The position numbers were made by a program, and so were the translations under genes. Source: a virus. From it: a DNA stretch of 64,000 bases. Below are positions 8,637-45,379 of the stretch, piece by piece (within the stretch, counting starts at the first letter, position 1; every line of letters starts with the position of its first letter). The notes under the pieces are model-generated. The model was not told the origin of the DNA. It saw only the letters and a program-made list of their open reading frames with translations, and ran no database searches. The stretch covers positions 1 to 64,000 of IMG/VR virus record IMGVR_UViG_3300036845_000721. The stretch is one strand, 5' to 3'.

Positions 8637-9501
8637 GCTGTGGATCCCGTCACCGCACTATTCGACCGGGCGCAGCGGCTACAACAAGATCGTGTTCCAT
8701 ACCACCCAGGGCGCGATGAAGATCCGGGACCTGGGGTCATGGTTCCAGAATCCGTCCGCGCAGTGCTCATCGCACCACGGGGCCGACGGCTACGAGCGCG
8801 GGGTATTCGGCGCGTACGTCTATGAGAACTACAGCGCCTGGACGCAGGGCAACGCGAACGGCTACTGCCTGTCAATTGAGCTGTGCGGCTACGCGGAATG
8901 GTCGCGCAGCGAATGGCTTGATAACCGGCCGGTCCTGGTCGACAACGCGGCCGAATGGCTGCGGTACATGGTCGACAAGTACGGCATTCCCTGGACCCTG
9001 CTCAGCGACTCCCAGGCGCAGAATGCAAGTGTTCGCGGAATCTGCCAGCACGTCAATCTCGGCTCATGGGGCAGCGGGCACTGGGACTGCGGCTCCGGCT
9101 TCCCGATCGACGTCATTGTCGACAAGGCCAAGAAATGGGGCGGCGGCGGCGGAACTGCACCACCCCAACCGGAACCGGTCTACCTGGAGGATGACATGCC
9201 GGTAATCCCGCCCAACGACGTAAACGACCGGCAGATCGCGATCTGCGTGGCCGGGCCGCACAAGGACCTCGGCTTCTGCGTCGACGCCGCGGTCCTGTCC
9301 GGGCCGGTGCAGCTCCGGTGCGCGTTCCACATCATCAACGGCGGCTGGAAAGTCATCGAGGTCACCATCAACCCGGGCAACATCCGCCCGGTCGTCTGCC
9401 CCCGGGACGGCAGCAACAACAAGATGTCGTGGGACGGCCTCAGCATCGACCGGAGGGACAACATGCCGGTCGACATCTGGCCGGTTCTCGTTCCCGGGTA
9501 G
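8623..9501 (+). CDS. Endolysin: N-acetylmuramoyl-L-alanine amidase (Amidase_2) with novel C-terminal domain
   Basis: 292 residues. Residues 20-165 form an Amidase_2/PGRP-type zinc amidase: NKIVFHTTQG places a likely zinc ligand at H26; CQHVNLG (H143) and GHWDCGSGFP (H153, D155, C156) supply the rest of the metal site. Such enzymes cut the bond between MurNAc and the stem peptide. A Gly/Pro linker (about 172-185) leads to a C-terminal domain of about 90 residues (RQIAICVAGPHKDLGFCVDA, then NGGWKVIEV, ending PVDIWPVL) that is clearly shared with the DUF1906 protein at 44462-45379. That domain probably binds the wall or stabilises the enzyme. ATG 8623 overlaps the preceding small gene. Confidence 0.88.
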   Translation: MAINELWIPSPHYSTGRSGYNKIVFHTTQGAMKIRDLGSWFQNPSAQCSSHHGADGYERGVFGAYVYENYSAWTQGNANGYCLSIELCGYAEWSRSEWLDNRPVLVDNAAEWLRYMVDKYGIPWTLLSDSQAQNASVRGICQHVNLGSWGSGHWDCGSGFPIDVIVDKAKKWGGGGGTAPPQPEPVYLEDDMPVIPPNDVNDRQIAICVAGPHKDLGFCVDAAVLSGPVQLRCAFHIINGGWKVIEVTINPGNIRPVVCPRDGSNNKMSWDGLSIDRRDNMPVDIWPVLVPG

Positions 9502-9537
9502 GGGTCAAACGGCGTTTCGTCGCTTACCATCGGGAAC

Positions 9538-9831
9538 GTGGGGCTGTTTCGCAGGAACGCCGCGCCCCCGGCGCCGTCCGGGCCGCCGCTGGGCGTGATC
9601 CTGCACTACCGCGGCCTGGCCATTCCGTGCGAGGTGCTGCGCGAGGAGGACCTGGACCGCCGCGGCCGGACCGCGTGGGCGGCATGGCCGATCGAGCCGG
9701 CGCCGCTGATGCCGGGCGAGGAACCTGAGCTCACCGCGACGATACTGCCGGACGGCTGCCTGCTGTTCTACGGCCCCCTGCTCCAGCGGGCGCCAGACAG
9801 TGACGAATGGTGGCTGCCCGACGTGTGGTAA
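9538..9831 (+). CDS. Conserved-looking small protein, function unknown
   Basis: 97 residues from GTG 9538. N-terminus GLFRRNAAPPAPSGPP, then a compact segment beginning GVILHYRGLAIPCEVLREED, with acidic and Trp-rich ending (DSDEWWLPDVW). It is the last gene before a strong terminator, so it closes the late structural/lysis transcript. No membrane segment or known motif. Confidence 0.7.
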   Translation: MGLFRRNAAPPAPSGPPLGVILHYRGLAIPCEVLREEDLDRRGRTAWAAWPIEPAPLMPGEEPELTATILPDGCLLFYGPLLQRAPDSDEWWLPDVW

Positions 9832-9866
9832 CCGGGACGGCTGTGACGTAACTCCTGTGACATGAC

Positions 9867-9908
9867 AGTAGCCCAGGGCCGCGATTGGTCCTGGGCTACT
9901 GCTTTTGC
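9867..9908 (+). terminator. Rho-independent terminator ending the late operon
   Basis: A perfect 11-bp stem AGTAGCCCAGG / CCTGGGCTACT (9867-9877 and 9890-9900) with a 12-nt loop is followed by GCTTTTGC. It lies 36 nt after the stop of the preceding gene and separates the endolysin group from the two secreted hydrolases. Confidence 0.85.
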
Positions 9909-10031
9909 ACCGAGAAGCCTGGAGCGGCCGTAGCCGTCCTGTTATCGTCGGTGAGGTTAGCGCCGAGCCCGGGAAACGGCCTGAGAATCCTTCCCCCGGG
10001 ACGGCGGCCGATCCTGAAGAAAAGCATACAG

Positions 10032-10862
10032 ATGAAAATGCGACATGCGCGACGGGCAATATTGTCCGTCCTCGGCGCGGTGGCACTGGTCTTCGCCTTC
10101 GCCTACCAGGCGGCAGCCCAGCCCCGGCCGGACGCCCTCCCGCCCGTCGTGGCCGCGGGGCTGCCGGCCGCCTACCAGCCGGCAGCCCTGCACCATGCCC
10201 CTTCCCAGCTCACCCGGCTCTACACCGTCCGTCACGGCGACACCCTGAGCAGGATCGCCGCCGCCCGGTGCGGGGTGGCAGCTGACTGGACCGGCATTTT
10301 CGCCGCCAGCCGCGCCGCGTACCGGACCGGGGCCGACCCGAACCTGATCTATCCCGGGCAGCTGCTGGTGCTGAGCTGCAGGCAGGCGACGATCCCGCGC
10401 CAGGCCAGGACCGTGACCAGGGCATACGTCACCGGACATCCGCGTTATGCCAGCTCAGGCCATATCGACGCCCGGGGCAGGATCTGGGGCGTCAGCTACG
10501 GCTACCCGAACTACTGCGGCGACGGCGACGGCGACGGCTGGGACGTGGCCTGCGGTACCAGGCATCCCGCCTCGCGCGGCGGCAGCGGGTACCGCGGATA
10601 CAGCCGGCCGGCCGGCGGCACCTATCACGGCTCGGGCTCGATGCAGCAGTGCATCATCGCGGCCGAGTCCGGCGGCAGCAGCCAGATAATGAACTCCACC
10701 GGGCACTACGGGCTCTACCAGTTCAGTGCCAGCACCTGGGCAGGCAGCGGCGGGAACCCGGCCGACTTCGGGCACGCCAGCGTGGCCGAGCAGAACCAGG
10801 TCTACTACAACGCGGTCGCGGCCCGGGGCTACCGCGACTGGGTGCCGTATGACCATTGTTAG
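10032..10862 (+). CDS. Secreted LysM plus Rpf-like transglycosylase
   Basis: 276 residues; the start at ATG 10032 exposes a Sec signal peptide (MKMRHARRAILSVLGAVALV, hydrophobic to AAAQP). A LysM peptidoglycan-binding module follows at about 60-115 (YTVRHGDTLSRIAAARCGV, ending PGQLLVLSC). Residues about 155-175 contain YCGDGDGDGWDVACG, like the calcium-binding loop of excalibur domains. The C-terminal 75 residues are a resuscitation-promoting-factor/transglycosylase fold with catalytic Glu212 in IIAAESGGSSQIMNSTGHYG and LYQFSASTW. It likely cleaves glycan strands outside the membrane. The 130-nt leader after the terminator shows no clear promoter hexamers. Confidence 0.85.
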   Translation: MKMRHARRAILSVLGAVALVFAFAYQAAAQPRPDALPPVVAAGLPAAYQPAALHHAPSQLTRLYTVRHGDTLSRIAAARCGVAADWTGIFAASRAAYRTGADPNLIYPGQLLVLSCRQATIPRQARTVTRAYVTGHPRYASSGHIDARGRIWGVSYGYPNYCGDGDGDGWDVACGTRHPASRGGSGYRGYSRPAGGTYHGSGSMQQCIIAAESGGSSQIMNSTGHYGLYQFSASTWAGSGGNPADFGHASVAEQNQVYYNAVAARGYRDWVPYDHC

Positions 10863-11460
10863 ACGGGCCGCAGCCACGGCGGCAGTACTCGCCTTCATCA
10901 CCGTCCTGGCGATCGCCGCGGCCCCCGCGCACGCTGCCACGTCAGCCCGCGGCGCTCCCGTCGCGGTCCAGAGCGCATACGGCGGGTCGCGGGCCGGGAA
11001 CGAGGCGCTGAACTGGGCCGAGCGGCACGCGGCCGGCCGCTGGTACTGCTTCGGCGGTACCGGGCCGTCGTGCTGGGACTGCTCCGGCCTGGTGATGACC
11101 GCGTTCCGGTACGGCGCCGGGATCGCCCTGCCCCGCACCACCTGGGCGATGCCCGGCAGCCCGCGGCTGCACCGGATCCCGCTGGCGGACGCGCGCCGCG
11201 GCGACATCCTGTTCTACGGGCCGGGGCACGTGGAGCTCGATACGGCCTGGCCGCACGCGTCGTTCGGCGCGCACGACGCGGGCAGCCTGATCGGCTGGAT
11301 CAGCTGGGGTCCGTGGTGGCACCCGACGGCCGCTTACCGAGTCTGGTTAGGAGTTGCGATCGTTTGCAGCCGGCACCCGGAGTTTTCCGCCCGTTTCACT
11401 CCAGACAGTCCGGAAAGGGTTACACTCCGGAATACGGTTGGCGAGCCAGTCGCGGGGTAG
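10849..11460 (+). CDS. Secreted NlpC/P60-family peptidase
   Basis: 203 residues from ATG 10849, overlapping the preceding gene by 14 nt. The N-terminus (TIVRRAAATAAVLAFITVLA to APAHA) is a Sec signal peptide. The NlpC/P60 core has catalytic Cys78 in CWDCSGLVMTAF and His127 in GPGHVELD, with RRGDILFYG between them. Such enzymes cut stem peptides (often D-gamma-Glu to diaminopimelate). It forms a two-gene unit with the Rpf-like enzyme, the same partnership as bacterial Rpf/Rip pairs. The last 40 residues after the P60 core are unlike it and may be disordered. Confidence 0.82.
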   Translation: MTIVRRAAATAAVLAFITVLAIAAAPAHAATSARGAPVAVQSAYGGSRAGNEALNWAERHAAGRWYCFGGTGPSCWDCSGLVMTAFRYGAGIALPRTTWAMPGSPRLHRIPLADARRGDILFYGPGHVELDTAWPHASFGAHDAGSLIGWISWGPWWHPTAAYRVWLGVAIVCSRHPEFSARFTPDSPERVTLRNTVGEPVAG

Positions 11461-11678
11461 CCGGCACCGGGAACGGACGCAGGCTCCCTGGCCCGGGCTC
11501 GGACCAGTCCGCGTGCACGCATGCTGACGGCATGACAGGGAGAGCGCGTCTTAGCGGAACGGTTACCCCGCGGCAGGGCGGCCCGCGCGCAGGCGGTGGA
11601 CCCATCACCACCTGTCAGCACGCGGGCCGCGCCAGCCGTCCAGGATCATGATCCTGCCATGGCCCGGGCGCGGGAACA
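11461..11678. other. Intergenic region between convergent operons
   Basis: No gene is supported on either strand. The main structure is the nested inverted repeat at 11580-11628. This is where the rightward hydrolase transcript and the long leftward transcript meet. Confidence 0.55.
11580..11628. terminator. Nested hairpin, possible bidirectional terminator
   Basis: Outer arms GGCCCGCG / CGCGGGCC (11580-11587, 11621-11628) enclose a second hairpin GGTGG-N8-CCACC (11595-11612). There is no T tract, which is common for GC-rich actinobacterial terminators, so function is inferred from position at a convergent junction. Confidence 0.4.
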
Positions 11679-12071
11679 TCACCCGGCCCGCGCGATGCGG
11701 GCGTCGCAGCCGTCGGTGTCCCGGCAGAGCCAGCCGCCCGGGTGATCCGGATCGGCCTGCGAGGCGACCGTCAGCAGCGGCAGATGGCGCTCCCCGCAGT
11801 ACCGGCAGCGGGCCGGGTCGGCGTTGTTGGCCTCCCGGACGGCAGCCATCAGGTCCGGCAGGTCTTCGGTCAGCAGCTGCCGGATGTTGGCGACCGCGGT
11901 CCGCAGCGGGAACTCCGGGCCGAGCACGTCCCGGCCGCCGAGCCGGATGACCAGCTCGCGCAGCCGGGCTTCCGGGTCGGCGACCTCGCCGCGCGGCACC
12001 TCGTCTGGCAGCAGCACCTGCAGTACCCGCTGGCGGCGGCCCTCGATCTTCTCCAGGTGAACGGTCTTCAC
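11679..12071 (-). CDS. Zinc-ribbon protein, function unknown
   Basis: 130 residues from GTG 12071, overlapping the upstream gene's stop. A helical N-terminal two-thirds is followed by CRYCGERHLPLL and then WLCRDTDGCDARIA, giving two cysteine pairs that could hold one zinc. Last gene of the leftward block, so its transcript ends in the 11.5-kb convergent region. DNA or RNA binding is possible but not shown. Confidence 0.75.
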   Translation of the reverse strand: MKTVHLEKIEGRRQRVLQVLLPDEVPRGEVADPEARLRELVIRLGGRDVLGPEFPLRTAVANIRQLLTEDLPDLMAAVREANNADPARCRYCGERHLPLLTVASQADPDHPGGWLCRDTDGCDARIARAG

Positions 12072-12316
12072 GCGGCGGCCCGCACGCAGGCCCGGCCCTC
12101 GGGAGTAAGACGGTAGCCGTACGGGGCACCGCCGAACAACCCGGACTCGGCCAGCTCGCGGCGGATCAGGGCACGCAGCGCCTGCAGGGCCAGCCCGTCG
12201 TTCTCGCAGCGGGCCGCGGCGAGGATGTCCGCCTGGATCGCCGGAGCCTCCTCGCTGAGCCTGCCCAGGGCCAGCAGTACCTGCAGCTGGTCCGGGCTCA
12301 GCGACCGGACGTTCAC
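12068..12316 (-). CDS. Small winged-helix-like protein
   Basis: 82 residues from GTG 12316, which overlaps the upstream TGA (GTGA). Pattern of three helices followed by YGYRLTPEGRACVRAAA, the typical final strand and helix of winged-helix DNA-binding domains. The neighbouring protein also ends a domain with WSLTPDGTAWYRAG, so the two may be related. Probable regulator; no target known. Confidence 0.7.
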   Translation of the reverse strand: MNVRSLSPDQLQVLLALGRLSEEAPAIQADILAAARCENDGLALQALRALIRRELAESGLFGGAPYGYRLTPEGRACVRAAA

Positions 12317-12708
12317 GGAGTGCCCTCCGCGGCAGGCTCCGCGGCGGGCTCCGCAGTGTTCCAGGGTGGCCCCTCGGCAGCCTCGGCCAGCCGGGCCAGC
12401 GGCTCGCCGGCGCCCGGGAACGCTATCCGGGCGACCGCGACCAGCGCCTGCAGGTCGTCGCGGCGGACCTCGGCCAGCCCGTCGCTGCCGCCGTCCGGGG
12501 TCTCGCCGAGCGCGTCCAGCGCGGCGATCACGGTCAGCGCGTCCTCGTACTTCGCCACGCTGGCCCGGAAGGTGCCGTCCGGGATCTCGCCCTTGTTCAG
12601 CATCTCGGCGTGCCGGGCGGCGGCTTCGAGGATCAGCGTCAGCGACCGCTTCGCCGCGGCTACCTGCCGGGCTCGGGCTTTCGTGACCGGGCTCTTTGGT
12701 GGTGTCAT
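12313..12708 (-). CDS. Helical protein, function unknown (short form with its own start signal)
   Basis: 131 residues from ATG 12708, preceded by GAACAGGAGACGAAACT, an excellent copy of the element found before most non-structural genes here. Lys/Arg-rich N-terminus (TPPKSPVTKARARQVAAAKR), then helices, and an Ala/Glu/Pro-rich tail with the repeat AEPAAEPAAEGTP. The same frame is open upstream into the preceding winged-helix coding region, so a longer fused form is also possible. Confidence 0.75.
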   Translation of the reverse strand: MTPPKSPVTKARARQVAAAKRSLTLILEAAARHAEMLNKGEIPDGTFRASVAKYEDALTVIAALDALGETPDGGSDGLAEVRRDDLQALVAVARIAFPGAGEPLARLAEAAEGPPWNTAEPAAEPAAEGTP

Positions 12709-13035
12709 AGTTTCGTCTCCTGTTCGATTTCCGGTTTTTGCTCCGCCGGTTATTTGATTTCCGGCCCTGTACCAGGCGGTACCGTCCGGAGTAAGGGACC
12801 AGTAAGCGCCGTTCGGCCCGTCCTCGCTGCGCGCCCGCCCGGCGTTCTGCAGCTCTTTCAGCAGGCCGAGCACCAGCGTCATCGGCGCCGCCTTGTCCGC
12901 CGGTCCCGGCAGCAGCAGCGGGCCGGCGGAAGCATTGACCAGGTACGCGGTCGCCCCCGGCTGTGCGCCCAGCAGGGCAGCGGCGACGACCCGCAGCTGC
13001 GCCGCCCGCAGCTCCCGGGCCGCCTGGGTGCTCAC
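12313..13035 (-). CDS. Winged-helix domain reading through into the downstream gene (240-residue long form)
   Basis: GTG 13035 overlaps the upstream TGA. Residues 1-92 form a winged-helix-like unit (TLVLGLLKELQNAGRARSED, then WSLTPDGTAWYRAG). After this, no stop occurs; the frame continues through what looks like an intergenic leader (12709-12760, including the start-associated element) and joins the downstream gene in frame. Either the two genes are fused and the downstream product is also made from an internal start, or a stop codon was lost recently. Confidence 0.6.
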   Translation of the reverse strand: MSTQAARELRAAQLRVVAAALLGAQPGATAYLVNASAGPLLLPGPADKAAPMTLVLGLLKELQNAGRARSEDGPNGAYWSLTPDGTAWYRAGNQITGGAKTGNRTGDETMTPPKSPVTKARARQVAAAKRSLTLILEAAARHAEMLNKGEIPDGTFRASVAKYEDALTVIAALDALGETPDGGSDGLAEVRRDDLQALVAVARIAFPGAGEPLARLAEAAEGPPWNTAEPAAEPAAEGTP

Positions 13036-13337
13036 GGCGCCGGCTTCCCGCCCGCGCGGGATTCCCGGATGACGGCCATGCACCGGTCCAGCAGCGGATG
13101 AAAGACCGTCCCGTCCGCGCGCAGCTGGGGGATCGCGCCGACGGTGACGTAGGCACTGAGAATCTGCTGCACCGCCGCGGGCTCGCCGCCCGCCGCGATC
13201 GCGATCACGGCCTGGCGGATGCTCCACCCGGCGTAGGAGTCGAAGTCGGCGCCCGTCCACCCGGCGGTCCGGAACTTCTCATCGAACAGCCGCCCGGCGG
13301 TCTCCCGGATCGCCGCCGCATCCTGGTCAGTGGTCAC
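13032..13337 (-). CDS. Small helical protein, function unknown
   Basis: 101 residues. GTG 13337 chosen because GGGACAGGAGACAGCTC precedes it and the start overlaps the upstream TGA. The sequence resembles a small alpha-helical bundle (AAIRETAGRLFDEKFRTAGW, then QAVIAIAAGGEPAAVQQIL, CMAVIRESRAGG). No known domain. Confidence 0.72.
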   Translation of the reverse strand: MTTDQDAAAIRETAGRLFDEKFRTAGWTGADFDSYAGWSIRQAVIAIAAGGEPAAVQQILSAYVTVGAIPQLRADGTVFHPLLDRCMAVIRESRAGGKPAP

Positions 13338-13567
13338 GAGCTGTCTCCTGTCCCGGGCTTCTGCGCGAGGAAGCCGTAGTCGTCGGCCACCGGGCGGCGC
13401 AGCTCCCAGCCCTCGGCGGCCAGCTGGCGGAGGGAGGCGGCGAACTCCTCGCTTTTCGCGGCGGCTTCCTCCAGCGTGACGGCGCCGTCGATCGTCCACT
13501 TGGCGCGGATGATGAGCTCGTCATCGTCACCGCCCGGGAACACCTGCGGGGCCTGGCCAGCGGTCAT
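13334..13567 (-). CDS. Small acidic protein, function unknown
   Basis: 77 residues from ATG 13567, ATGA overlap with the upstream gene, and GAACAGGAGACAGGAGACC just before it (two tandem start elements). It reads like a small alpha/beta domain (DELIIRAKWTIDGAVTLEEA, LRQLAAEGWELRRPVADDYG). The tail PGTGDSS is the translated start element of the next gene. Confidence 0.72.
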   Translation of the reverse strand: MTAGQAPQVFPGGDDDELIIRAKWTIDGAVTLEEAAAKSEEFAASLRQLAAEGWELRRPVADDYGFLAQKPGTGDSS

Positions 13568-13893
13568 GTCATGGTCTCCTGTCTCCTGTTCTCGTCTTCG
13601 GCCCGGAGCCGCTGCAGCCCGCGGGCCGTCCGCTCCCATTCCTCCATGTTGTGCCGCAGCGCGGTGCCCAGGTGCGGCCAGCAGTAGACCCCGTCGCTAG
13701 CGGGCAGGAAGGCGTCGCGCAGCGCGGTGAACTGCCACCTGGCCCGGTTCCGGCACCTGTATTTCGCCATCGTCTGCGAGCTGTCCAGGGCGGCCAGCGG
13801 CATGTGCCCCCAGCGGTAGGCGTCGCAGTCCTGGGTGCGCTCCAGCCGGGTCACCCACGGCAGCCGGGCCACCAGGTCGGTGATCGCGCTCAT
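13564..13893 (-). CDS. Small protein with Trp/His/Cys-rich core, function unknown
   Basis: 109 residues from ATG 13893. Features DCDAYRWGHMP, MAKYRCRNRARWQFTALRD and GVYCWPHLGTALRH; the spaced Cys and His residues may bind metal. The tail RRQETMT comes from translation of the next gene's start-associated element. No family recognised. Confidence 0.72.
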   Translation of the reverse strand: MSAITDLVARLPWVTRLERTQDCDAYRWGHMPLAALDSSQTMAKYRCRNRARWQFTALRDAFLPASDGVYCWPHLGTALRHNMEEWERTARGLQRLRAEDENRRQETMT

Positions 13894-14228
13894 TGCTGCA
13901 GCTCCTGCTCGATCTCGCGGATCATCCGGCGCTGGTTGTCCAGGATGATCTCCGGCGCGCCCAGGTCGGTCAGCCGCTGCAGCTGAGCCTGGCGGAGCGC
14001 CAGCCGGTGCTCCAGGCCCGGCTCGGTATCAGCCCACTGATTCCATTCAGTGATCTCCTCCGGCGTGTCCTGATGCTCCGCGCGGGGCCGGCCGCAGCAG
14101 CCGTCGGTGAAGTAGTGGTCCGGCGGCTCGCGGGTCCAGTCGTGGCAGTTTCCGCAGTAACCCTCATCGACGTCGCGGGGGTGGTGCGACGTGCTGCCGC
14201 AGCGCGGGCAGGTATACGACGCGCTCAC
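13890..14228 (-). CDS. Zinc-ribbon protein, function unknown
   Basis: 112 residues from GTG 14228 (overlaps the upstream TGA). CPRCGSTSHH and YCGNCHDWTREPPDH make a clear two-knuckle zinc ribbon, with a further CC pair at DGCCGRPRAEH, followed by a long C-terminal helix (HRLALRQAQLQRLTDLG to EIEQELQQ). May act as a nucleic-acid or protein adaptor. Confidence 0.75.
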   Translation of the reverse strand: MSASYTCPRCGSTSHHPRDVDEGYCGNCHDWTREPPDHYFTDGCCGRPRAEHQDTPEEITEWNQWADTEPGLEHRLALRQAQLQRLTDLGAPEIILDNQRRMIREIEQELQQ

Positions 14229-14836
14229 GGCCGCTGCCCCGCTTCCTGCTCCAGCAGCTCCCACAGCCGCCGTTCCGCCTCGGCCCGGTGGTTGTCCCGG
14301 ACGTGCCCGTCGCCTGCGCGCAGGTCGGCCAGGATGTCGTCGCCCTGCTCCATCCGGGCGCGGGCCAGCCGGTGCGCGCGGTCGGGCGGTGTCGTGATGA
14401 TCTCGTGCAGGTGCGGTCCGGGCCGGTCCAGGCAGTGGCAGACCTTCCCGTCCGGGGACCGCACGACGTACTGGGCCATGCCGGGCAGCGCGTGGTAATG
14501 CGTCATGCCGTACCGCTTGCCGTCCGGGCCGTGGCACCAGCGCGTCCCGTCGATGCCCCCGGTGACCAGCCCCTCATGATCACAGTGACTCCACCAGACC
14601 GGTTTCCCGCAGTCGGTGCAGTAGCCTTCCTGGTTCCCGCCCGGCTCGATCCGGACGGTTCCGTCGGCGGCGCGGATGATCCAGTCGCCGGTATCGGCGT
14701 GAAGCCTGCCACCAGGCGGGATTTTCGCGAACCCGCCGATCCGGCCGCTATTCCAGGCCGCGGCCCCGGCCCATTCCGCCAGCGACCGCGCCTGGTGGCT
14801 GTCGCCGAACCGGCGGGCCTCGAAGTTGACGCTCAT
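14225..14836 (-). CDS. Hypothetical protein with Cys/His-rich core
   Basis: 203 residues from ATG 14836; GATGAGGAGACC lies just upstream and itself overlaps the stop of the large gene before it. Central CTDCGKPVWWSHCDHEG suggests a zinc site; KRYGMTHYHALPGMAQYVV and HCLDRPGPHLHEIITTPPDR add several histidines. C-terminus is helical and charged. No known domain. Confidence 0.74.
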   Translation of the reverse strand: MSVNFEARRFGDSHQARSLAEWAGAAAWNSGRIGGFAKIPPGGRLHADTGDWIIRAADGTVRIEPGGNQEGYCTDCGKPVWWSHCDHEGLVTGGIDGTRWCHGPDGKRYGMTHYHALPGMAQYVVRSPDGKVCHCLDRPGPHLHEIITTPPDRAHRLARARMEQGDDILADLRAGDGHVRDNHRAEAERRLWELLEQEAGQRP

Positions 14837-14843
14837 GGTCTCC

Positions 14844-16928: not shown

Positions 16929-16994
16929 TGGTCTCGCCTCCTGTCTCCTGATCCTGGTCGTACTGTACGGCCGGGCTGCGACATTCCCCGCCGG

Positions 16995-19033: not shown

Positions 19034-19054
19034 AGTGCTATCTCCTGTTCCTTT

Positions 19055-36665: not shown

Positions 36666-37048
36666 CCCCGGCCGAGGCCCGGATGGACGCGCTGTGCCAG
36701 GCGTTCCAGGCCGCCATCGACGGACCGGAGCCGGCCGCGGCGCGCACCGCGCAGTTCACCGTCGACGGGGCCGCGTACTACGCGGTCACGCCCGGCCAGC
36801 GGACCGCGCTGATGGTCCTGGCTCCCTGGCGGGTCTGGAACCTGAACGCGACACGGAGGGACCCGGAACTGCCGCACCAGTTCGTCTCGCTCAAGATCGC
36901 GGCCGGCCTCGCGGTCACCTGCAACTGCCTGGCCCGCGGCTGCCCGCGGCAGTTCATCGCCACCCACGGCGACGGCGAGGCCCTGGACGGCAGCGAGGCG
37001 CTGGCGCTCTGGCGCGGCTGGCACGAACGGCGGGGGGTAAAGGTATGA
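36662..37048 (+). CDS. Small protein with CxC cysteines, function unknown
   Basis: 128 residues from GTG 36662. Beta-rich core with AYYAVTPGQRTALMVLAPWR and a distinctive VTCNCLARGCPRQFIATHGD, three cysteines suited to metal binding, then a final helix (SEALALWRGWHERRG). No family. Confidence 0.7.
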   Translation: MTPAEARMDALCQAFQAAIDGPEPAAARTAQFTVDGAAYYAVTPGQRTALMVLAPWRVWNLNATRRDPELPHQFVSLKIAAGLAVTCNCLARGCPRQFIATHGDGEALDGSEALALWRGWHERRGVKV

Positions 37049-37509: not shown

Positions 37510-37718
37510 GCTACGACCCGGATTTCGCGGTTTTCCCGCGCCGGCTGCCGTCACGGCCCCGGCTCCGGGCGCGGACACGGCTGCGGCACGCCGTGCGCAA
37601 CGCGCTCTGGGCCGCGAGCGGCCGGCTGTGCGGCTGGCACGGACCCGGCCGCCGGATCGCGTTCGAGGCCGGGCACCTGCTCGGCGAGACCGGCTGGAAG
37701 CTGAGGGACCCGTCATGA
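37506..37718 (+). CDS. Small basic protein, function unknown
   Basis: 70 residues from GTG 37506 (overlaps the upstream TGA). Arg-rich N-terminus (FPRRLPSRPRLRARTRLRHA), ending EAGHLLGETGWKLRDPS. Could be nucleic-acid-binding; unknown. Confidence 0.65.
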   Translation: MSYDPDFAVFPRRLPSRPRLRARTRLRHAVRNALWAASGRLCGWHGPGRRIAFEAGHLLGETGWKLRDPS

Positions 37719-38227
37719 TCACCGTCCTCGGCGGCGACCCCGGGAACACGGCCGGGTTCCTGCTGGCCGGCTGGCGTCCCGGCGAGCGGAAGGCCGCGTT
37801 CGCCCGCGCCTTCCAGTGCGACGGCGACTCCGCTGCGCTGCTGCTCGCCTGGATCTGCGACAGCGAGGCGGCTCTCACCCCGGGCATCACCGCCGTGCAG
37901 ATCGAGGCGTGGGACAGCCGCCCCCTCCCGGGCGGGCTGCACGGCGCCAGCCCGTCCGCCATCCAGGCCCAGATCAGCGACCTGGAGGCGGTCCTGGCCG
38001 GGCGCGGGGTGCCGTGCGTTATCCGGCCCGTCGCCGACGTCAAGACGTGGGCCGGCGACGAGCGGCTGAAGCGGGCAGGGCTGCTGGACACGGTCAGCCC
38101 GGCGCCGATGCGGCACGCGAAGTCGGCCGCCTGGCACTGCCTGTACTGCGCGGTGCACGACTGCGGCCTGCCGGATCCGCTGTCCCGGCGGGCTGGCGTA
38201 CAGGAGGCGCGGGATGTGCCAGGCTAG
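37715..38227 (+). CDS. RuvC-like Holliday junction resolvase
   Basis: 170 residues from ATG 37715 (ATGA overlap). ITVLGGDPGNTAGFLL gives the first acidic residue Asp8; AVQIEAWDSRPLPGG supplies the second (about Glu68). DVKTWAGDERLKRAGLL is typical of phage RuvC-like proteins. The closing motif, normally H-A-x-D-A, reads RHAKSAAWHCLY, so the final Asp is missing. Probable branched-DNA resolvase, or a degenerate version. Confidence 0.68.
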   Translation: MITVLGGDPGNTAGFLLAGWRPGERKAAFARAFQCDGDSAALLLAWICDSEAALTPGITAVQIEAWDSRPLPGGLHGASPSAIQAQISDLEAVLAGRGVPCVIRPVADVKTWAGDERLKRAGLLDTVSPAPMRHAKSAAWHCLYCAVHDCGLPDPLSRRAGVQEARDVPG

Positions 38228-38356
38228 GGGAACAGCAACGGGAACCCGCCACTGCCAGGAAACGGGTCCCCGTGATGCTGCTCAGACCACCGCACCGCCC
38301 GCTGAAGGGGTGAGGATCTTGACCACCACTGTCATCATAACTGACAGGGGGCCGGA
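38228..38356 (+). promoter_or_regulatory. Intergenic hairpin and inverted repeat before the GIY-YIG gene
   Basis: A hairpin with 11-bp arms (38238-38248, 38263-38273, one mismatch) could end the upstream transcript. Then TTGACC lies about 20 nt before CTGTCA-N7-TGACAG (38329-38347), a possible operator. It is one of the few gaps in the plus-strand block. Confidence 0.45.
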
Positions 38357-39265
38357 ATGACCGCCGGCACGCCAGCAGGCAACGGCCAGGAGCTGTCCGG
38401 CCAGCATGTGCTCTACCGGCACTGGGCCAAAGACGGCACCCTCCTGTACGCCGGGCGGACCAACAATCCCCCGGCCCGGATGCGCAAGCACCGGTCAGAA
38501 GCTGACTGGTGGGCGTCCGTCTGCTGGACTACTTACGAGAAGTTCCCGTCCCTGGAAGCGCTCAAGGCCGGGGAGGCCTGGGCGATCGAGCACGAAAACC
38601 CGCAAGGGAACATTCAGGGACGGGTGTTCCAGGCTCCCCCGCGCAAGAGCCCGGAGCCGGGCACCGACCCTTATGTCCCGGTAAGAACCCGGGACCTGAG
38701 ACCAGACCTGGAGCTCATCCACCCGCTCTCGCGCGAGTTCTCCGTGTACGGAGGCGGCGACACCGTTCGGCGCGCCCGGGAATGGGCGCTGAACCGCCGG
38801 TACTACCTGCTGGACGGGCTGCCGGCCTGCGCTCACGCCTTCTACCTGATGAGGTGCCCGAACGCCGGCCGCTGCATCCCGCACGCAGACCACACCCAGG
38901 TGTGGGTCCCGGCCCCGGACTTCAGCAGGTTCGAGACCTACAGCGGTGCAGAGCCGCCGTTCATCCTCACGCAGCCGTACCGCGGCAGCCTGCCGGAGGG
39001 CGATGAAGACGACGCACCGGCAGCCGGGCTGCCCGGGCAGGCAATCAGGCTCCCGGCAGAAGTTACCGCTTACGCCGCCGCTCACGGGCTCGGTGCCGAG
39101 ACCTGGATCTCCGACGCCTGGTACTACCCGGAGCACTGCGTACCTGTCCGGCTCACGCCGCACGGAGGCGGCTACGTATCGTTCCCCCTGGAGACGGAGA
39201 CGCTGAGCCTGATGTGCGCCTGGCGGGACGAGTGGCCGGAAGCGGTACCGGAATGGCTCAAGTGA
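38357..39265 (+). CDS. GIY-YIG domain protein with unknown C-terminal domain
   Basis: 302 residues from ATG 38357. Residues 17-65 are a GIY-YIG nuclease domain: HVLYRHWAKDGTLLYAGRTN, then PPARMRKHRSEADWW, with the Arg of AGRT and a Glu downstream. Residues 100-200 include YLMRCPNAGRCIPHADH, a possible metal site. The C-terminal third is mixed alpha/beta with no known match. It sits between a RuvC-like gene and the polymerase fusion with a 1-nt overlap to the latter, as a freestanding homing-type or repair nuclease. Confidence 0.72.
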   Translation: MTAGTPAGNGQELSGQHVLYRHWAKDGTLLYAGRTNNPPARMRKHRSEADWWASVCWTTYEKFPSLEALKAGEAWAIEHENPQGNIQGRVFQAPPRKSPEPGTDPYVPVRTRDLRPDLELIHPLSREFSVYGGGDTVRRAREWALNRRYYLLDGLPACAHAFYLMRCPNAGRCIPHADHTQVWVPAPDFSRFETYSGAEPPFILTQPYRGSLPEGDEDDAPAAGLPGQAIRLPAEVTAYAAAHGLGAETWISDAWYYPEHCVPVRLTPHGGGYVSFPLETETLSLMCAWRDEWPEAVPEWLK

Positions 39266-42200
39266 TGGCTGACCTCATGCCGCCGCCCGTCGCCTGGCTG
39301 TCGGATATCCACCGGGCCTACCTGAACGAGCACGCCGTCACCGACGAGATCATCGCCACTGCCCGGATCCGGTCCGAGGGCGAGGTAATCGTTTTCCCGT
39401 GGCGGGACAGCGACCTGGTCACCGAGCAGCGCCGCGTGTGGCCCGAGCCCGAGGACGGGCTGCCCGAGGGCATGCCGAAATACTGGTGGGAGGCGGGGCA
39501 CTCCCCACACCTGTGGGCTGTCCGGCCCGTTACCGGGCTGCCCGCCAGTGCCCCGGTAATCATCGCCGAGGGCACCAAGCAGTCCCTGGCCGTCGCGTCC
39601 TGGGCGCCCCTGGAGTACGCCGTCTACGGGATGCCCGGATGCGATATCGGGCTGGTATCGATGCTGCAGCGGGCCGGGCTGGACCGGTTCGGCGGCCATC
39701 CGGTGGTCATCATGCTCGATGCCGACGCGGCCGAGAACCTGAACGTGTACGAGGCCGGCGAGAAACTGGCCGAGCTGCTGGATCTGGAAGGCGCCGCGGC
39801 GATCGCGTTCACCCGGCTGCCCGCTCAGGGCAAAGACGGGATCGATGACTTCCTGGGCCTGGTGGAACCGGAAGGCCGCCGGACCGAGGTGCTGGCCAAG
39901 CTGCTGTCCCGGGCCGAGCCGAAACCCGCCGGGCGCAGGCCGGTGCGGCGCCCGGTCAGCGAGGAGCCGCCGGACACGGGCGGGCTGCCCGCGGTCACCG
40001 TGAACAAGAACCGCCGTGAGGTCATCCACGAAATCCTGTGGCATCTCCAGCAGCGGTGGAACGGCACCGAGCTGTTCTGCTACGGAGGGGCGCTCACCCG
40101 GCTGCGCGAGACAGCGACAGAGCCGCTGGAGGAAGGCGCATTCCTGCGCTGGATGGTAGAGGCAGTCTGCCCGGTCAAGTACACCCCGGCCGGCCCGGCC
40201 AGCCCGGCCCGGTATGAGCCCACCTGGCCGGACCAGCAGACGGTCAAGGCCCTGCTGTCCTCCGGCGACGAGTTCGCCCCGCTAACCCGGGTCAGCCGCA
40301 CCCCGTTCATCCGGGCCGACGGCACCGTCTGCGCCAAGAACGGGTACGATCCTGCCAGCCAGACCATGCTGATCACCGGGAACTCCGGAATGGACCAGCT
40401 GGACATCCCGCACGAGCCGACACAGCAGCAGGCCATCACCGCCGCCGGGTACCTGCTGGACGAGTGGCTGGGCGACATGCCGTTCCGGGACCGGGCCAGC
40501 CGGGCCGGGGCGCTCGCCCTGGTGCTCACCCAGTTCATCCGCGGCCTGGTGCCGCTGGCCCCGCTCGCGGTCATCTCCGGACTGCAGCCGGGCGTCGGGA
40601 AGGGGCTGCTGGCCGACTGCGTGCAGCTGATGATCGCCGGAGAGGCCGCGCCGCCGCTGCCCTGGAGCCAGGTAGACGACGAGGAGAACCGAAAGCAGAT
40701 CACCAGTGCCTTCAAGGCCGGCGCTAACCTGGTCTGGTTCGATGAGGCGCACCAGATCGAGTCGCTGGCGCTGTCCCGGGCCATTACCTCGCTGACCTAC
40801 GCCGACCGGATCCTCGGCCTGACCAAGCAGGTCAGCTGGCCCAACCAGGTCACCTGGCTGGCTACCGGAAACCAGGTGGCGGCCAGCTCGGACATGGCCC
40901 GGCGGGCCTACTGGATCGAGCTGTACCCGGACGTGCCCGACCCGGAGAACCGGCCGGAATCCGATTTCAGCCACCCGGACCTGCGCGGCTGGACACTGGA
41001 TGCCCGGCCCCGGCTGATCACCGAAGCGCTGACCGTCATCCGAGCCTGGTACGCGGCCGGCCGGCCGCCGCATTCCCGCGGGCTCCTGATGGGATCGTTC
41101 GAGACCTGGGACAAGATGATGTCCGGCATCCTGGCCTACGCGGGGATAGACGGGTTCCTCGGCAACCTGGCCGCCAAACGGGCCGAGCGCGACGTCACCG
41201 GGGGGTACTGGGCCGAGCACGTTGCCTGGCTGCGCGCCCAGTTCGGCGCCGGGGAGTTCGCCGCCCAGGACGTGAAGATCCGGGCCGCCGGCTCCGGCGG
41301 GGCCTGGGATGCCCCGCCCCGGCTAGAGGACTTGAGCCGGGAAGGGTGGACCCGGGTGCTCGGCCAGGCGTACGCCCGGAATGCCGACCGGTGGTACGGG
41401 CAGTTCCGGCTGCACCGGTCCGGTGAGGGATTCGGGCACTCGGCACGCTGGACGATCCAGCAGCGGGGTGAAGAAACGGCACTCCCGGCTCCAAGAGACA
41501 ACACCCTGCCTGACCTGGGCGGGGGGAACAGGGGGAACGAATCCGGGCCGCCCGCGAACGGGTCGTTCGCTGCCCCAACCGCAAACGAAACCCTGCCTGA
41601 GCTGGGAGGATACGGTAATGGGGGAACAGAAATGCGTTCCCCTGCTACAGAAACCATGCCTGAGCTGGGCGGGCTTCCGGAAAACAGCGGTTTCGGGGGA
41701 ACAGGGGGAACTACTACCCCAGGTGTCCATGTGCGCGCGGGTGCGGGCGCACACGCGCGCGTTACGCGCGAGGGGGATTTCGTTCCCCTTGCTCCCCCTG
41801 TTCCCCCGAACCCCCCTGTTGCCGGAACCGGCCCGGTGCTCGGCTTCGACCTGGAAACCGGCGAGGCCGGGAAGCTGTTCACCTACACCCCGCACGATGA
41901 GACCGGCTACGTCCGGCTCGCCGGGATCACAGGCCCGTCCGGCGCGAACATGATCACCGGGGTACCGCAGCTGCTCGCGATGCTGGGCATGGCGCGGCGG
42001 GCGTACGGGCACAACATCCTCGGCTTCGACGGGCTGGCGCTGGCCCGCTGGGCGGGCGCGGACTGGGACTGGTTCTGCGACCGGGCGGTGGACACCGAGC
42101 TGATCGCCCGGCAGGCGTTCCCGCCCCGGTCCCGGGAGTCCGGCACGTCGGCCGACAAGCTGGGCCTGGACGCGGTGGCGGCGCTGCTCGGGCTGTCCGG

Positions 42201-43605
42201 CAAGACCGACGAGCTGTCCCGGCTGGCCGCTAAGCACGGCGGCTACGACATGATCCCGGCCGACGATCCGGAGTACCTGGCCTACCTCCGCGGCGACCTG
42301 GACGCCACCCGCGGCGTCGCCGGGCAGCTGCTGCGGCACTACGACGAGGACGCCTACCTGCCGCGCGAGCACGAACTGGCCCGGATCGCCGGGCACATGG
42401 CGCTGAACGGGCTGGCGGTCGACATCCCGCTGCTGACCCAGCGGTACGAGGCCGGCGAGCAGCGCAGGCAAGACGCCCTGCAGGCACTGCACGACGGCTG
42501 GGGCCTGCCGCTCGGCCGGGCCGTGATGCGCGGGCGCGGTCACGCCCGGCACGAGGAGACCGAAGGGTTCACCGCGCCGCTGGCCACCGCCGAAGGCCGC
42601 GCCTGGCTGGCCGCCCAGTGGGAGCGGTACCAGGTCCCGGACCCGCCGCTGACCGCGAAGGGACTGCTGGCCATCGGCAGCGACGAGCTCGCGGTCATCG
42701 GCCGCGACCCGGACTGCCCGCCGGACCTGCGGGCGATGCTGGCGCTGATGAACATCGTCACCACCACCCGGTCGGTCTACCAGACCGCGCGGGCGTGGCT
42801 GTGCCCGGACGGCAAGGTGCACCCGAAGATCAGCTTCCGGCAGGCGTCCGGCCGCTGGTCGGTCACCGACCCCGGGCTGACCGTGTTCGGCAAGCACGAG
42901 GGACGGCACGTGGAACGGGACATCTTCACCGCCAGCGAAGGCCGGGTGCTGATGAGTTTCGACCTGGAGCAGGTGGACATGCGGGCGATCGCCGGGCACA
43001 GCCAGGACCCGGCCTACATGGAGCTGTTCAGGCCCGGCCGCGACGCGCACTCCGAGATCGCCGCCCGGGTGTTCGGCGAGGCGCCCCGGGACGCGAAAGG
43101 CCGCCACCCGATGCGCCAGCCCGCGAAAGCCCGGGGCCACGGCTGGAACTACGGGATGGGTCCGGACCGGATGATCCGCGACGGGGTCGACCCGGACATG
43201 GCCTACGGGTTCGACAACGGGATGAAAGCCGCGTTCCCGGTGCTGTGCGACTGGCGCGAGGGCATCCGCGCCATCGCGGCGGCCGGCGGCATCCTGGACA
43301 ACGGGTTCGGCCGCCGGATGCGCGCCGACCCGCGGCACGCGCACACCGTCGCCCCGGCGCTGATGGGCCAAGGGGGAGCCCGCGACATCATGGGCCAGTG
43401 CCTGCTGCAGATCGACCCGGCGCTGCGCCCGTACATGGTGCTGCAGGTGCACGACGAGGTAATCCTGGACGTTCCGGAGGGCGATGCCGGGGAGGCCGCC
43501 GCCGAGGTCCGCCGGGCCATGACCTGGACCTGGCGGGACGTCCCGATCCTGTGCGACCAGGCCGGCCCCGGCCGGTCCTGGGGCGAGCTGTCGGGGGACA
43601 AGTGA
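39265..43605 (+). CDS. TOPRIM / AAA+ helicase / family A DNA polymerase fusion
   Basis: 1446 residues in one uninterrupted frame from ATG 39265. (i) Residues about 95-195: TOPRIM/DUF3854-like part, VIIAEGTKQSLAV and HPVVIMLDADAAENL. (ii) About 395-630: P-loop ATPase, Walker A GLQPGVGKG (439-447), Walker B LVWFDEAH (D493, E494), then ATGNQ sensor. (iii) 736-855: Gly/Pro/Thr linker with three LP(D/E)LGG-type repeats. (iv) From 862: 3'-5' exonuclease (D862, E864; Y1007, D1011). (v) Polymerase: motif A D1233 in SFDLEQVDMRAIAG, motif B K1288 to Y1296, motif C VHDE (H1396-E1398). A primase-helicase region and the replicative polymerase in one chain; no separate primase gene is visible. Confidence 0.88.
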   Translation: MADLMPPPVAWLSDIHRAYLNEHAVTDEIIATARIRSEGEVIVFPWRDSDLVTEQRRVWPEPEDGLPEGMPKYWWEAGHSPHLWAVRPVTGLPASAPVIIAEGTKQSLAVASWAPLEYAVYGMPGCDIGLVSMLQRAGLDRFGGHPVVIMLDADAAENLNVYEAGEKLAELLDLEGAAAIAFTRLPAQGKDGIDDFLGLVEPEGRRTEVLAKLLSRAEPKPAGRRPVRRPVSEEPPDTGGLPAVTVNKNRREVIHEILWHLQQRWNGTELFCYGGALTRLRETATEPLEEGAFLRWMVEAVCPVKYTPAGPASPARYEPTWPDQQTVKALLSSGDEFAPLTRVSRTPFIRADGTVCAKNGYDPASQTMLITGNSGMDQLDIPHEPTQQQAITAAGYLLDEWLGDMPFRDRASRAGALALVLTQFIRGLVPLAPLAVISGLQPGVGKGLLADCVQLMIAGEAAPPLPWSQVDDEENRKQITSAFKAGANLVWFDEAHQIESLALSRAITSLTYADRILGLTKQVSWPNQVTWLATGNQVAASSDMARRAYWIELYPDVPDPENRPESDFSHPDLRGWTLDARPRLITEALTVIRAWYAAGRPPHSRGLLMGSFETWDKMMSGILAYAGIDGFLGNLAAKRAERDVTGGYWAEHVAWLRAQFGAGEFAAQDVKIRAAGSGGAWDAPPRLEDLSREGWTRVLGQAYARNADRWYGQFRLHRSGEGFGHSARWTIQQRGEETALPAPRDNTLPDLGGGNRGNESGPPANGSFAAPTANETLPELGGYGNGGTEMRSPATETMPELGGLPENSGFGGTGGTTTPGVHVRAGAGAHARVTREGDFVPLAPPVPPNPPVAGTGPVLGFDLETGEAGKLFTYTPHDETGYVRLAGITGPSGANMITGVPQLLAMLGMARRAYGHNILGFDGLALARWAGADWDWFCDRAVDTELIARQAFPPRSRESGTSADKLGLDAVAALLGLSGKTDELSRLAAKHGGYDMIPADDPEYLAYLRGDLDATRGVAGQLLRHYDEDAYLPREHELARIAGHMALNGLAVDIPLLTQRYEAGEQRRQDALQALHDGWGLPLGRAVMRGRGHARHEETEGFTAPLATAEGRAWLAAQWERYQVPDPPLTAKGLLAIGSDELAVIGRDPDCPPDLRAMLALMNIVTTTRSVYQTARAWLCPDGKVHPKISFRQASGRWSVTDPGLTVFGKHEGRHVERDIFTASEGRVLMSFDLEQVDMRAIAGHSQDPAYMELFRPGRDAHSEIAARVFGEAPRDAKGRHPMRQPAKARGHGWNYGMGPDRMIRDGVDPDMAYGFDNGMKAAFPVLCDWREGIRAIAAAGGILDNGFGRRMRADPRHAHTVAPALMGQGGARDIMGQCLLQIDPALRPYMVLQVHDEVILDVPEGDAGEAAAEVRRAMTWTWRDVPILCDQAGPGRSWGELSGDK
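41515..41820 (+). repeat. G-run/C-run repeats inside the polymerase linker
   Basis: GGGGGAACA-type units occur at about 41515-41538, 41617-41640 and 41694-41716, with the inverted form (GTTCCCC, TGTTCCCCC) at 41636 and 41788-41815. They encode the low-complexity hinge. The stretch also uses more A-rich codons than its neighbours. It may be only codon-level repetition, or an embedded binding array. Confidence 0.5.
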
Positions 43606-43814
43606 GGACCCGGCCGTTCATGCGGGCGCACTTCGCCTGCGACCCGGGCGGCTGCGGCGCGCGGCCGGGTGAGCCGTGCCTGAACTACACCGGGCGCGGC
43701 GGCCGGTACGGCGAGCCGGTGGAGGACGTGCACGCGGCCCGGCTGCGGAAGTTCCGGGCCTGGACCCGCGCTGAGCAGCAGCTGGAATCTTCCGGCCGAT
43801 CGGAGAATCAGTGA
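43602..43814 (+). CDS. Small zinc-binding protein (phage C-x(n)-PGEPC type)
   Basis: 70 residues from GTG 43602 (overlaps the polymerase TGA). AHFACDPGGCGARPGEPCLN followed by a DVHAARLRKFRAW helix is the usual small zinc-binding domain of actinophages (C..C.A.PG.PC...H). Likely nucleic-acid contact; coupled to the polymerase. The tail SSGRSENQ is encoded partly by a degenerate start hairpin. Confidence 0.7.
   Translation: MRTRPFMRAHFACDPGGCGARPGEPCLNYTGRGGRYGEPVEDVHAARLRKFRAWTRAEQQLESSGRSENQ
43790..43807 (+). promoter_or_regulatory. Start-associated hairpin, degenerate copy 4
   Basis: TTCCGGCCGATCGGAGAA keeps the core CCGATCGG palindrome and overall order, followed by TCAGTG with the GTG start. 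It lacks a full AGGAG element; weaker than the other copies. Confidence 0.45.
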
Positions 43815-44452
43815 ACGATCAGGATCAGGCTGTGCTGGACGGCAGCATGGGCGCCTGGGAGCGCAGCCGCCCGCCCGGGATTCTCCGGCAGGCACGGCTG
43901 CTGCCGCCCGGCATGCGCTGCACGGCGTACTGGTACTCGGCGCGCCGGGGGCTGCCGACAGCGATGTGCTGCCTGCTGGAGCTGGGATCGCGGGCGGCGC
44001 ACATGGCCCGCCAGGCGGGGCAGGCCACGGTGCGCGTTGCCGAGGGTCCGTTCCTGGTCAACACCTGGCCCGAGGAGTTCTGGGACGCCGCCGCGGCCAC
44101 GATGGACTGGCGCTGGACCGCCTGGCAGTACGCGGCCGGCGCCCGGATGCTCGTCGGTGACAGCAGCGACGCCGAGTTCACCGCCTGCCTGGACCGCTAC
44201 GGCGCCGAGCTGGCCGCGGGCTGCGGGCTACCCCGCCGGCCCGGCCCGGACGGTGAGACGTGGCCGGACTGGATCTGGGGCCGGGTCTCCGGCGCGATGG
44301 CGAACAACGCGGCCGAGTACGGTGACTGGCACCTGGGCAGCCAGGACCTGGACGAGCTGCTGAACGGCGCCGCCTGCGAGATCTACCGGCAGCCGGTCCC
44401 GCGCGGCGACCCGGAGCACCCGCACGGCTACTGGGAAGCCGGCGACTACTAG
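43811..44452 (+). CDS. Hypothetical protein
   Basis: 213 residues from GTG 43811. RQARLLPPGMRCTAYWYSAR, AHMARQAGQATVRVAEGPFL, NTWPEEFWDAAAATMDWRWT. Rich in Trp and Ala, acidic C-terminus (DLDELLNGAACEIYRQPVPR). No family recognised. Last gene but one of the replication block. Confidence 0.7.
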   Translation: MNDQDQAVLDGSMGAWERSRPPGILRQARLLPPGMRCTAYWYSARRGLPTAMCCLLELGSRAAHMARQAGQATVRVAEGPFLVNTWPEEFWDAAAATMDWRWTAWQYAAGARMLVGDSSDAEFTACLDRYGAELAAGCGLPRRPGPDGETWPDWIWGRVSGAMANNAAEYGDWHLGSQDLDELLNGAACEIYRQPVPRGDPEHPHGYWEAGDY

Positions 44453-44461
44453 GCTGGGGCC

Positions 44462-45379
44462 ATGGCACTGGTAGCGCGCGGTTACGACTGCTCGTGGGAT
44501 CCTCCCGACCAGCAGTGCATGAAGAACGCCGGGTACGCGTTCATGGTCCGGTACGCGTCACGAGACCCGTCGCAGGCAGGCAAGAACCTGACCCGGGCCG
44601 AGCTCGATTCAGCGCTGGCGAAGGGCCTCGGGGTCTGCGTGGTCTGGCAGGATTCCAAGTCGCAGATGAAGGGCGGCTACTCGGCCGGCACCTCGCACGC
44701 CGGCAGCGCGGACTCATTCGTGCGGGGCCTGGGCCTGGGCGGTATCCCGGTTTACTTCGCGTGCGACTTCGATCCCGTCTCGTCCGACTGGGCCGCGGTC
44801 GACGGCTACTGCGACGGGGTGAAAGCGGTGCTCGGGAAGTCCCGGGCCGGGGGATACGGCGGTTACAGCTTCATCAAGCGCGAGCTGGACGCGGGCCGGA
44901 TCACCTGGGCCTGGCAAACCTACGCTTGGAGCGGCAGCCCGACGACGTGGGACGCCCGCGCCCAGATGCGCCAGGTGAAAAACGATTACGCCCGCTGTGA
45001 CGGCTACATCGATGACGACGAGGCGCACGCCGCCGACTACGGCCAGTGGCCCCGCCCGGCCGCCGCCGCCCCGCAGCAGGCCGAGGCACTGGACCCGGTG
45101 TGCCTGCCGCCCCGGGCCGTGTCAGGCCGGCAGGTCTCCGTCTGCCTGAACGGCCCGCACCGCGACTTCGGGATCTGCGTGGACGCCTCCGTGCTGCAGG
45201 GCTCGGTGCACATCCGGGCCGCGCTGCACCTCATCAGCGGCGGCTGGCACGTCATCCAGGTCTACGCCGACCCCGGGCACGACCGGGTGGTGGTCAGCCC
45301 GCCGTCGCCCTACGACGGCGCCAGCCTGCACCGGCAGGACGACCAGCCGGTGGACGTCTGGCCGGTGTTCACGGCGTAA
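44462..45379 (+). CDS. Second lysin: DUF1906 glycoside-hydrolase-like protein with shared C-terminal domain
   Basis: 305 residues from ATG 44462. Residues 5-200 are a DUF1906 (Rv2525c-like) TIM-barrel: ARGYDCSWDPPDQQCMKNAG, YAFMVRYASRDPSQ, GLGVCVVWQDSKSQ, IPVYFACDFDPVSSDWAAVD, TWAWQTYAWSG. After a Pro/Ala linker the last 90 residues (RQVSVCLNGPHRDFGICVDA, SGGWHVIQV, QPVDVWPVF) match the C-terminal domain of the amidase at 8623-9501. It probably degrades or binds peptidoglycan. Odd location: end of the replication block, 2 nt from a convergent gene. Only a weak ribosome site (GGCTGGGGCC). Confidence 0.8.
   Translation: MALVARGYDCSWDPPDQQCMKNAGYAFMVRYASRDPSQAGKNLTRAELDSALAKGLGVCVVWQDSKSQMKGGYSAGTSHAGSADSFVRGLGLGGIPVYFACDFDPVSSDWAAVDGYCDGVKAVLGKSRAGGYGGYSFIKRELDAGRITWAWQTYAWSGSPTTWDARAQMRQVKNDYARCDGYIDDDEAHAADYGQWPRPAAAAPQQAEALDPVCLPPRAVSGRQVSVCLNGPHRDFGICVDASVLQGSVHIRAALHLISGGWHVIQVYADPGHDRVVVSPPSPYDGASLHRQDDQPVDVWPVFTA

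Follow-up and report, generated by a model that had tools for sequence, protein, structure and literature searches.

The two unrelated lysins of a viral genome share a C-terminal module, and related phages carry different but matched tails

The stretch of DNA analyzed here (the window) comprises the first 64 kb (64,000 nucleotides) of a soil phage record of 131,444 bases (IMG/VR IMGVR_UViG_3300036845_000721) with a G+C content of 71%. It encodes two predicted lysins, an amidase (8623-9501) and a DUF1906 protein (44462-45379), and both full open reading frames (ORFs) are present as first described. The amidase gene lies in the lysis region, after the tail genes, and the DUF1906 gene is located 35 kb away, behind a DNA polymerase gene. 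Each protein consists of a catalytic-type domain, a linker, and a C-terminal module, and the two module copies, designated W1 and W2, are the subject of this study. The parts of the two genes are as follows.

8623..9138, plus strand: lysin 1, Amidase_2 catalytic core, residues 1-172 (Pfam PF01510, E = 2.7e-9)
9139..9192, plus strand: lysin 1 linker, Gly/Pro/acidic (translation)
9193..9498, plus strand: module copy 1 (W1), C-terminal on the amidase (BLASTP, leave-one-out profile, AlphaFold2 model)
44462..45058, plus strand: lysin 2, Rv2525c-like (formerly DUF1906) catalytic-type domain (Pfam PF08924, E = 5.3e-25; PHROG 13480 endolysin, E = 2.6e-22)
45059..45103, plus strand: lysin 2 linker, dissimilar to the lysin 1 linker (translation)
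45104..45376, plus strand: module copy 2 (W2), C-terminal on the DUF1906 protein (BLASTP, whole-record search, leave-one-out profile)

Residues H26, E86, H143, and C156 of the amidase core, which we take to be the zinc/catalytic residues of the T7 lysozyme type, are invariant in an alignment of five homologues. The amidase is only ~30 to 34% identical to mycobacteriophage lysins, with 72% of the query covered. The designation of phage PF08924 proteins as lysins is a prediction based on PHROG and GenBank annotation. A first-pass annotation, made from the letters of the window without database searches, had proposed that the two lysins share one C-terminal domain on unrelated catalytic parts. 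Both halves of this proposal were borne out. The catalytic parts belong to different Pfam families (PF01510 and PF08924) and gave only trivial BLASTP matches to each other. Their C termini, in contrast, form a homologous domain of ~95 residues: residues 195-290 of the amidase align by BLASTP with residues 215-304 of the DUF1906 protein (46/96 identical [48%], 65/96 positive, 102 bits, E = 5e-30). A leave-one-out profile recovered W1 and W2 at E values of 1e-26 and 1e-28 among 10,267 ORFs, the best non-member scoring ~1. The entire 131,444-base record contains exactly these two copies and no third.

We examined the tails attached to homologous amidase cores at 80 IMG/VR loci. The initial clustering of these tails joined three module members to the GYWT tails described below through similarity of their linkers, so the clusters were corrected with profiles, which separated them. 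The module was present at 5 loci, a second module that we call type b at 21, PG_binding_1-like tails at 14, a tail with the motif GYWT..DGAV at 30, and other tails at 7, while 3 cores had no tail. PG_binding_1-like tails occur on both enzymes (14 amidase tails and 2 DUF1906 tails), and all 16 that were scanned match PF01471; the PG_binding-like profile additionally picked up L029, a type b tail. The GYWT tail, in full a repeat-like GYWT..DGAV.AFGDA.Y, is the commonest at the 80 loci (L043, L049, L085, and ~27 similar ones), and the single one scanned had no Pfam match. Further unnamed short C termini, possibly also binding modules, follow the same amidase core in L045, L077, and L120.

PF08924 was then sought in 107 amidase-bearing records (36 + 50 + 21, some of them distant relatives or near-duplicates) and was present in 4: G012 (108.8 kb), G032 (190 kb), and the pair G002 and G003, which are the same as L012 and L013 and probably represent a single phage. 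There are thus three large records whose two lysins are tailed and far apart, namely, the record of the window, G012, and G032. Both lysins carry the new module in the window phage, and both carry type b in G012 and in G032, each of which has exactly two type b copies; the window's record has none. When the DUF1906 tails were compared with a pool of 99 distinct amidase tails (5 of the window type and 27 of type b), the best match of each was the amidase tail of its own genome in all three phages (101 versus 74 bits for the runner-up in the window phage, 156 versus 50 in G012, and 144 versus 65 in G032). With tails drawn randomly from the pool, this outcome would have a probability of roughly (1/99) cubed; sharing of the type alone would have one of ~1 in 3,600 by our own arithmetic. 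The catalytic parts behave differently. Between the three phages, amidase cores are 73 to 78% identical and DUF1906 cores 60 to 65%, whereas the modules are 26 to 28% identical (G012 versus G032) or of a different type. Within a genome, the two modules are 49% (window), 77% (G012), and 73% (G032) identical. A scan with the polymerase gave 54 loci, and the 22 of these that were examined added no record carrying both lysins.

Phylogenetic analyses joined each tail to its genome-mate rather than to the tails of enzyme orthologues. W1 and W2 formed a clade with support of 99/99 (97/95 after the addition of L168), and grouping of W1 with L008 was rejected (p-AU = 0.0045 and 0.0049), even though the amidase cores of these two are 92% identical. 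In a tree of 29 type b modules, the genome-mates of G012 (98/99) and those of G032 (100/99) likewise formed clades. One ancient duplication predating the split of the phages would be expected to unite the DUF1906 tails. They are not united, so each of these lineages apparently saw its own transfer of the module from one lysin gene to the other or into both, or the module was repeatedly homogenized. Taken together, the genome-wise matching and the trees indicate that the tail follows the phage, and probably its host, rather than the enzyme.

Recombination between the lysin genes might also have produced such sharing neutrally, without the two tails being selected to bind the same ligand; recombination in the linkers would spread any tail, and only three phages display the matching. 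The third codon positions argue against this explanation. At identical residues, they agree at 19/32, 19/37, and 25/40 sites in the three module pairs and at 34/63, 27/61, and 40/77 sites in orthologous amidase cores. Given that genome-mates are about as diverged at these positions as orthologous cores, no copying was recent, and the resemblance appears to be old and maintained at the protein level. DUF1906 proteins in other records, moreover, end in many different tails, which indicates that attachment is open to any tail. We therefore regard neutral sharing as very unlikely.

The first-pass annotation had read the C-terminal domain as wall binding or as an assembly domain. Our analyses support this reading and favor wall binding over assembly, because PG_binding_1 takes the same place after homologous amidase cores, because a lectin-like two-blade fold takes that place in other phages, and because the module matches between both lysins of one phage. 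The module has the position of an endolysin wall-binding domain, being C-terminal on a peptidoglycan hydrolase and preceded by a linker, and it is swappable with recognized wall-binding modules on the same enzymes.

The lectin-like fold is that of type b, a module of ~95 residues exemplified by the following tails.

L181, 4628-4906: type b module
L022, 4541-4825: type b module
L171, 4625-4894: type b module
L109: type b module, tail of the amidase

The AlphaFold2 model of type b (pLDDT, 91.1; pTM, 0.82) corresponds to two blades of the fucose-binding propeller lectins, the match to PHL extending over 90 residues (Z = 11.1; root mean square deviation [rmsd], 2.0). Further structural matches were to PLL, AFL, SapL1, and AAL and to the two-blade lectins RSL (Z = 8.8) and BambL. 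No Pfam family, including those of lectins, matched the sequences of the 18 members scanned. Type b is thus modeled as two fucose-lectin-like propeller blades, and sugar binding is predicted from this model.

RSL works as a trimer, and the resemblance of type b to such two-blade lectins, as well as the acidic linkers that precede the module, would also suit an oligomerization or enzyme-regulating domain that builds multimers or keeps the lysins inactive until lysis. PG_binding_1 nevertheless replaces the module in homologues of both enzymes, an oligomerization domain would have no need to match between two enzymes of one phage or to differ between phages, and oligomerization of the lectin type would itself accompany sugar binding. 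This alternative therefore appears unlikely. The module might instead dock both lysins to a component of the phage, such as the tail, the holin, or a chaperone. A phage-borne partner would explain genome-wise matching equally well, and the amidase gene does follow the tail genes. The record, however, encodes neither a third copy nor an obvious partner, a recognized peptidoglycan-binding family and a lectin-like fold are among the interchangeable modules, and the DUF1906 gene is 35 kb from the lysis region. On these grounds, we consider docking highly improbable.

The family to which W1 and W2 belong was assembled by scanning IMG/VR with the lysins for relatives and then calling members by profile. 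It comprises seven distinct module sequences, six on amidases and one (W2) on a DUF1906 protein. The members beyond the window are L008, L012 (L013 has the same protein), L025, L038, and L168, and each of them is carried by an amidase of this one type. The first six members were recovered by leave-one-out profiles at E values of 1e-28 to 2e-9 (best non-member, ≥0.19 in the 10,267 ORFs), and L168 scored 9e-16 with a profile built without it. The module was found in 5 of 40 whole records behind the loci, once in each and always on an amidase already known. The DUF1906 tail of L186 (E = 0.15) is a possible member that was not counted.

In the seven-row alignment, D31, R42, A44, H46, D81, R87, and D89 are invariant. 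The conserved residues named by the first-pass annotation fared unevenly. Its tryptophan, at position 52, is present in 6 of 7 members and replaced by phenylalanine in the other. Cysteines and a Pro-His pair had also been proposed as conserved, but Cys29 occurs in 4/7 members, Cys18 in 2/7, His23 in 4/7, and the pair Pro22-His23 in 2/7, so the cysteines and the pair are traits of the window copies and not of the family. The ending PVD(I/V)WPV is indeed present in both window copies and is peculiar to them.

The first-pass annotation did not recognize the domain in any named family, and this agrees with our searches, since none matched in Pfam, NCBIfam, PHROGs, or PDB sequences. Six module members scanned against Pfam, NCBIfam, and PHROGs gave no family match with a meaningful E value, the sole Pfam trace being PF25776 (Ig_VWDE) for one member at an E value of 0.025. 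None of the six matched PG_binding_1 (PF01471), LysM, SH3b, choline-binding repeats, or other named wall-binding families in Pfam, and no carbohydrate-binding module (CBM) or discoidin family appeared at an E value of ≤1 in Pfam or NCBIfam. PDB chains included no sequence relative. Searching a phage collection with the domain alone by tblastn gave no match at an E value of ≤1 for W1, W2, L008, or L025; two Aeromonas phage matches to L038 (E = 0.9) were taken as chance. A search of plasmids, for which the complete DUF1906 protein was the only query, gave no match reaching the tail. A scan of viral sequences with the two-copy alignment produced 170 pattern matches, none of which was confirmed. 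Scans of genome contigs with the amidase and DUF1906 alignments likewise gave no confirmed match; these scans require near-exact patterns of 7 to 8 residues, so absence from bacteria is not implied. The module family thus appears, from its sequences, to be unnamed in the libraries searched.

AlphaFold2 modeled the module from a six-row alignment as a beta-sandwich (mean pLDDT, 85.7; pTM, 0.77). Foldseek returned no PDB match at an E value of ≤0.001. Its best match was the insecticidal protein PirA (E = 7e-3), followed by a mixed list that included jelly-roll and carbohydrate-binding domains. VIA-align matched the model to the C-terminal domain of a GH29 fucosidase (Z = 8.1, rmsd of 2.7, 85 residues aligned) and to the CBM32 of AlyQ (Z = 7.7, rmsd of 3.2, 91 residues aligned, with Z at background level), and other matches were to CBM32, CBM35, CBM29, and picornavirus capsid jelly-rolls. 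A jelly-roll-like sandwich is therefore the likely fold class of the model. Since a Z score of ~8 is the usual background for models that lack a clear match, a relation to CBMs is a lead only.

We consider it probable that the module is an exchangeable cell-wall-binding domain of actinophage lysins that is matched within a genome, its ligand probably being a host wall glycan. A beta-sandwich of ~95 residues on a flexible linker would anchor the catalytic domain to this glycan. The two enzymes are expected to cut different bonds, one as an N-acetylmuramoyl-L-alanine amidase and the other as a glycosidase-like Rv2525c/DUF1906 protein, and the common module would concentrate both on the same wall polymer. 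Matching may have arisen when the module of one lysin gene was copied to the second in the same lineage, and it may be kept because both enzymes must recognize the wall of the same host; a changed host wall would then select the same new module on both. A more specific form of this proposal, which we advance tentatively as a possibility, is concerted evolution in large actinophages, in which a newly acquired module is copied to the other lysin, the tail type reports the host wall glycan, both tails bind one ligand, and the window module represents a new glycan-binding family.

Several observations weigh against wall binding with genome-wise matching. The matching was tested by three phages only. 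Synonymous sites of genome-mates are as diverged as those between phages, which means that any copying was not recent. The fold match is weak (Foldseek and VIA-align scores as given above), and the term glycan is used by analogy. Finally, only the amidase carries the module in L012/L013 and L168, where the DUF1906 genes lie directly behind the genes for the module-bearing amidases and end without it.

L012, 10001-10642: DUF1906 gene without module, short acidic end
L168, 4001-4642: DUF1906 gene without module, short acidic end

A matched tail is thus not obligatory. The short acidic end of these two proteins resembles the linker that precedes the module in amidases. Where the genes are adjacent, one anchored lysin may suffice, or a module may have been lost.

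Sixteen other records with DUF1906 proteins revealed no amidase of this type and so provide no test of matching; the PF01510 search was negative in 17/17 DUF1906 records, yet it missed the divergent L168 amidase, which was found otherwise. G104, whose DUF1906 protein has a different tail, also showed no amidase of this type and gives no such test. The closest DUF1906 relatives outside IMG/VR, from a Streptomyces plasmid (41.6% identity) and a mycobacterial prophage (37.5%), have other C termini.

Several neighboring genes were also noted. A small ORF overlaps the start of the amidase gene.

8454..8636, plus strand: ORF of 60 amino acids; a relative (50% over 40 amino acids) precedes the L008 amidase

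After the amidase gene, two further wall hydrolase-like genes occupy 10080-11460 of the window. The first combines LysM (PF01476, E = 1e-4) with an Rpf/transglycosylase-like domain (PF06737, E = 5e-8), and its relatives adjoin the amidases of G012 and G032; the second encodes an NlpC/P60 protein (PF00877, E = 1.8e-10) with a hydrophobic stretch at the N terminus. Together with the two lysins, these genes bring the candidate wall enzymes of the record to at least four. At 39265-43605, a 1,446-amino-acid protein has primase-like (DUF3854/PHROG primase) and family A DNA polymerase regions and is related to Pas55 of Actinoplanes phage phiAsp2 (39.6% identity over 88% of the query). phiAsp2 was considered on account of this polymerase match and of two similarly sized genes behind its polymerase gene; it was rejected, as its Pas57 reads as a Ser/Thr-rich protein with a hydrophobic start and not as a lysin.

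The arrangement has precedents in part. The pneumococcal lysozyme Cpl-1 and amidase Pal have a choline-binding module that is shared among lysins of different phages and the host autolysin. Choline-binding modules, as far as the accounts in PMC4929436 and PMC6023083 indicate, are common to pneumococcal phage lysins with unrelated catalytic domains, are set by the host wall ligand, and are subject to modular exchange. As in those lysins, one module is found here on unrelated catalytic domains; unlike them, two lysins of one phage share it, the matching recurs with a different module in related phages, and the module differs in sequence and fold. The C termini of the mycobacteriophage LysA types C1 and C2 (Payne and Hatfull) had no conserved-domain match and were proposed to recognize the wall, binding not yet having been shown according to a review (PMC6116114). 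They resemble our module in being actinophage lysin C termini with no named domain and a proposed role in wall recognition, a likeness of description rather than of directly compared sequences, and the phage collection contained no match to the two window copies.

Gordonia phages with two lysA genes produce separate lysins with one catalytic domain each (PMC9671378), just as two separate lysins with single catalytic domains occur in the window phage; wall-binding regions were reported in 6/16 phages, and the portion of that paper available mentions no C-terminal module common to both lysins. Among carbohydrate-binding folds, CBM32 and the F5/8 type C (discoidin) domains are beta-sandwiches, as is the predicted model of the module, which aligns with the chains listed over 81 to 102 of its 102 residues (Z = 6.4 to 8.1), but the module is shorter, lacks a sequence match, and scores at background level. 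PG_binding_1 (PF01471) is found at the equivalent C-terminal position of homologous amidases and DUF1906 proteins, but its sequence is unrelated to that of the module (0/6 members match). Lysin modularity and binding modules common to unrelated lysins are classical knowledge (PMC4929436 and PMC6023083), and two lysA genes per actinophage have been described (PMC9671378). The literature searched, which included few subscription journals, contained no account of a phage whose two lysins have a module in common that varies in step from phage to phage.

The same tail on two unrelated lysins, and different but matched tails in relatives whose catalytic parts are alike, amount to a natural experiment. 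The tail would be determined by a factor that the two enzymes share, and the host wall is the simplest candidate. A C terminus shared by two lysins of one genome may thus offer a homology-free way to recognize wall-binding modules, one that here yields unnamed module types with predicted sugar-binding-like folds, and the tail type might serve to indicate the wall chemistry of the host when a phage is uncultivated.

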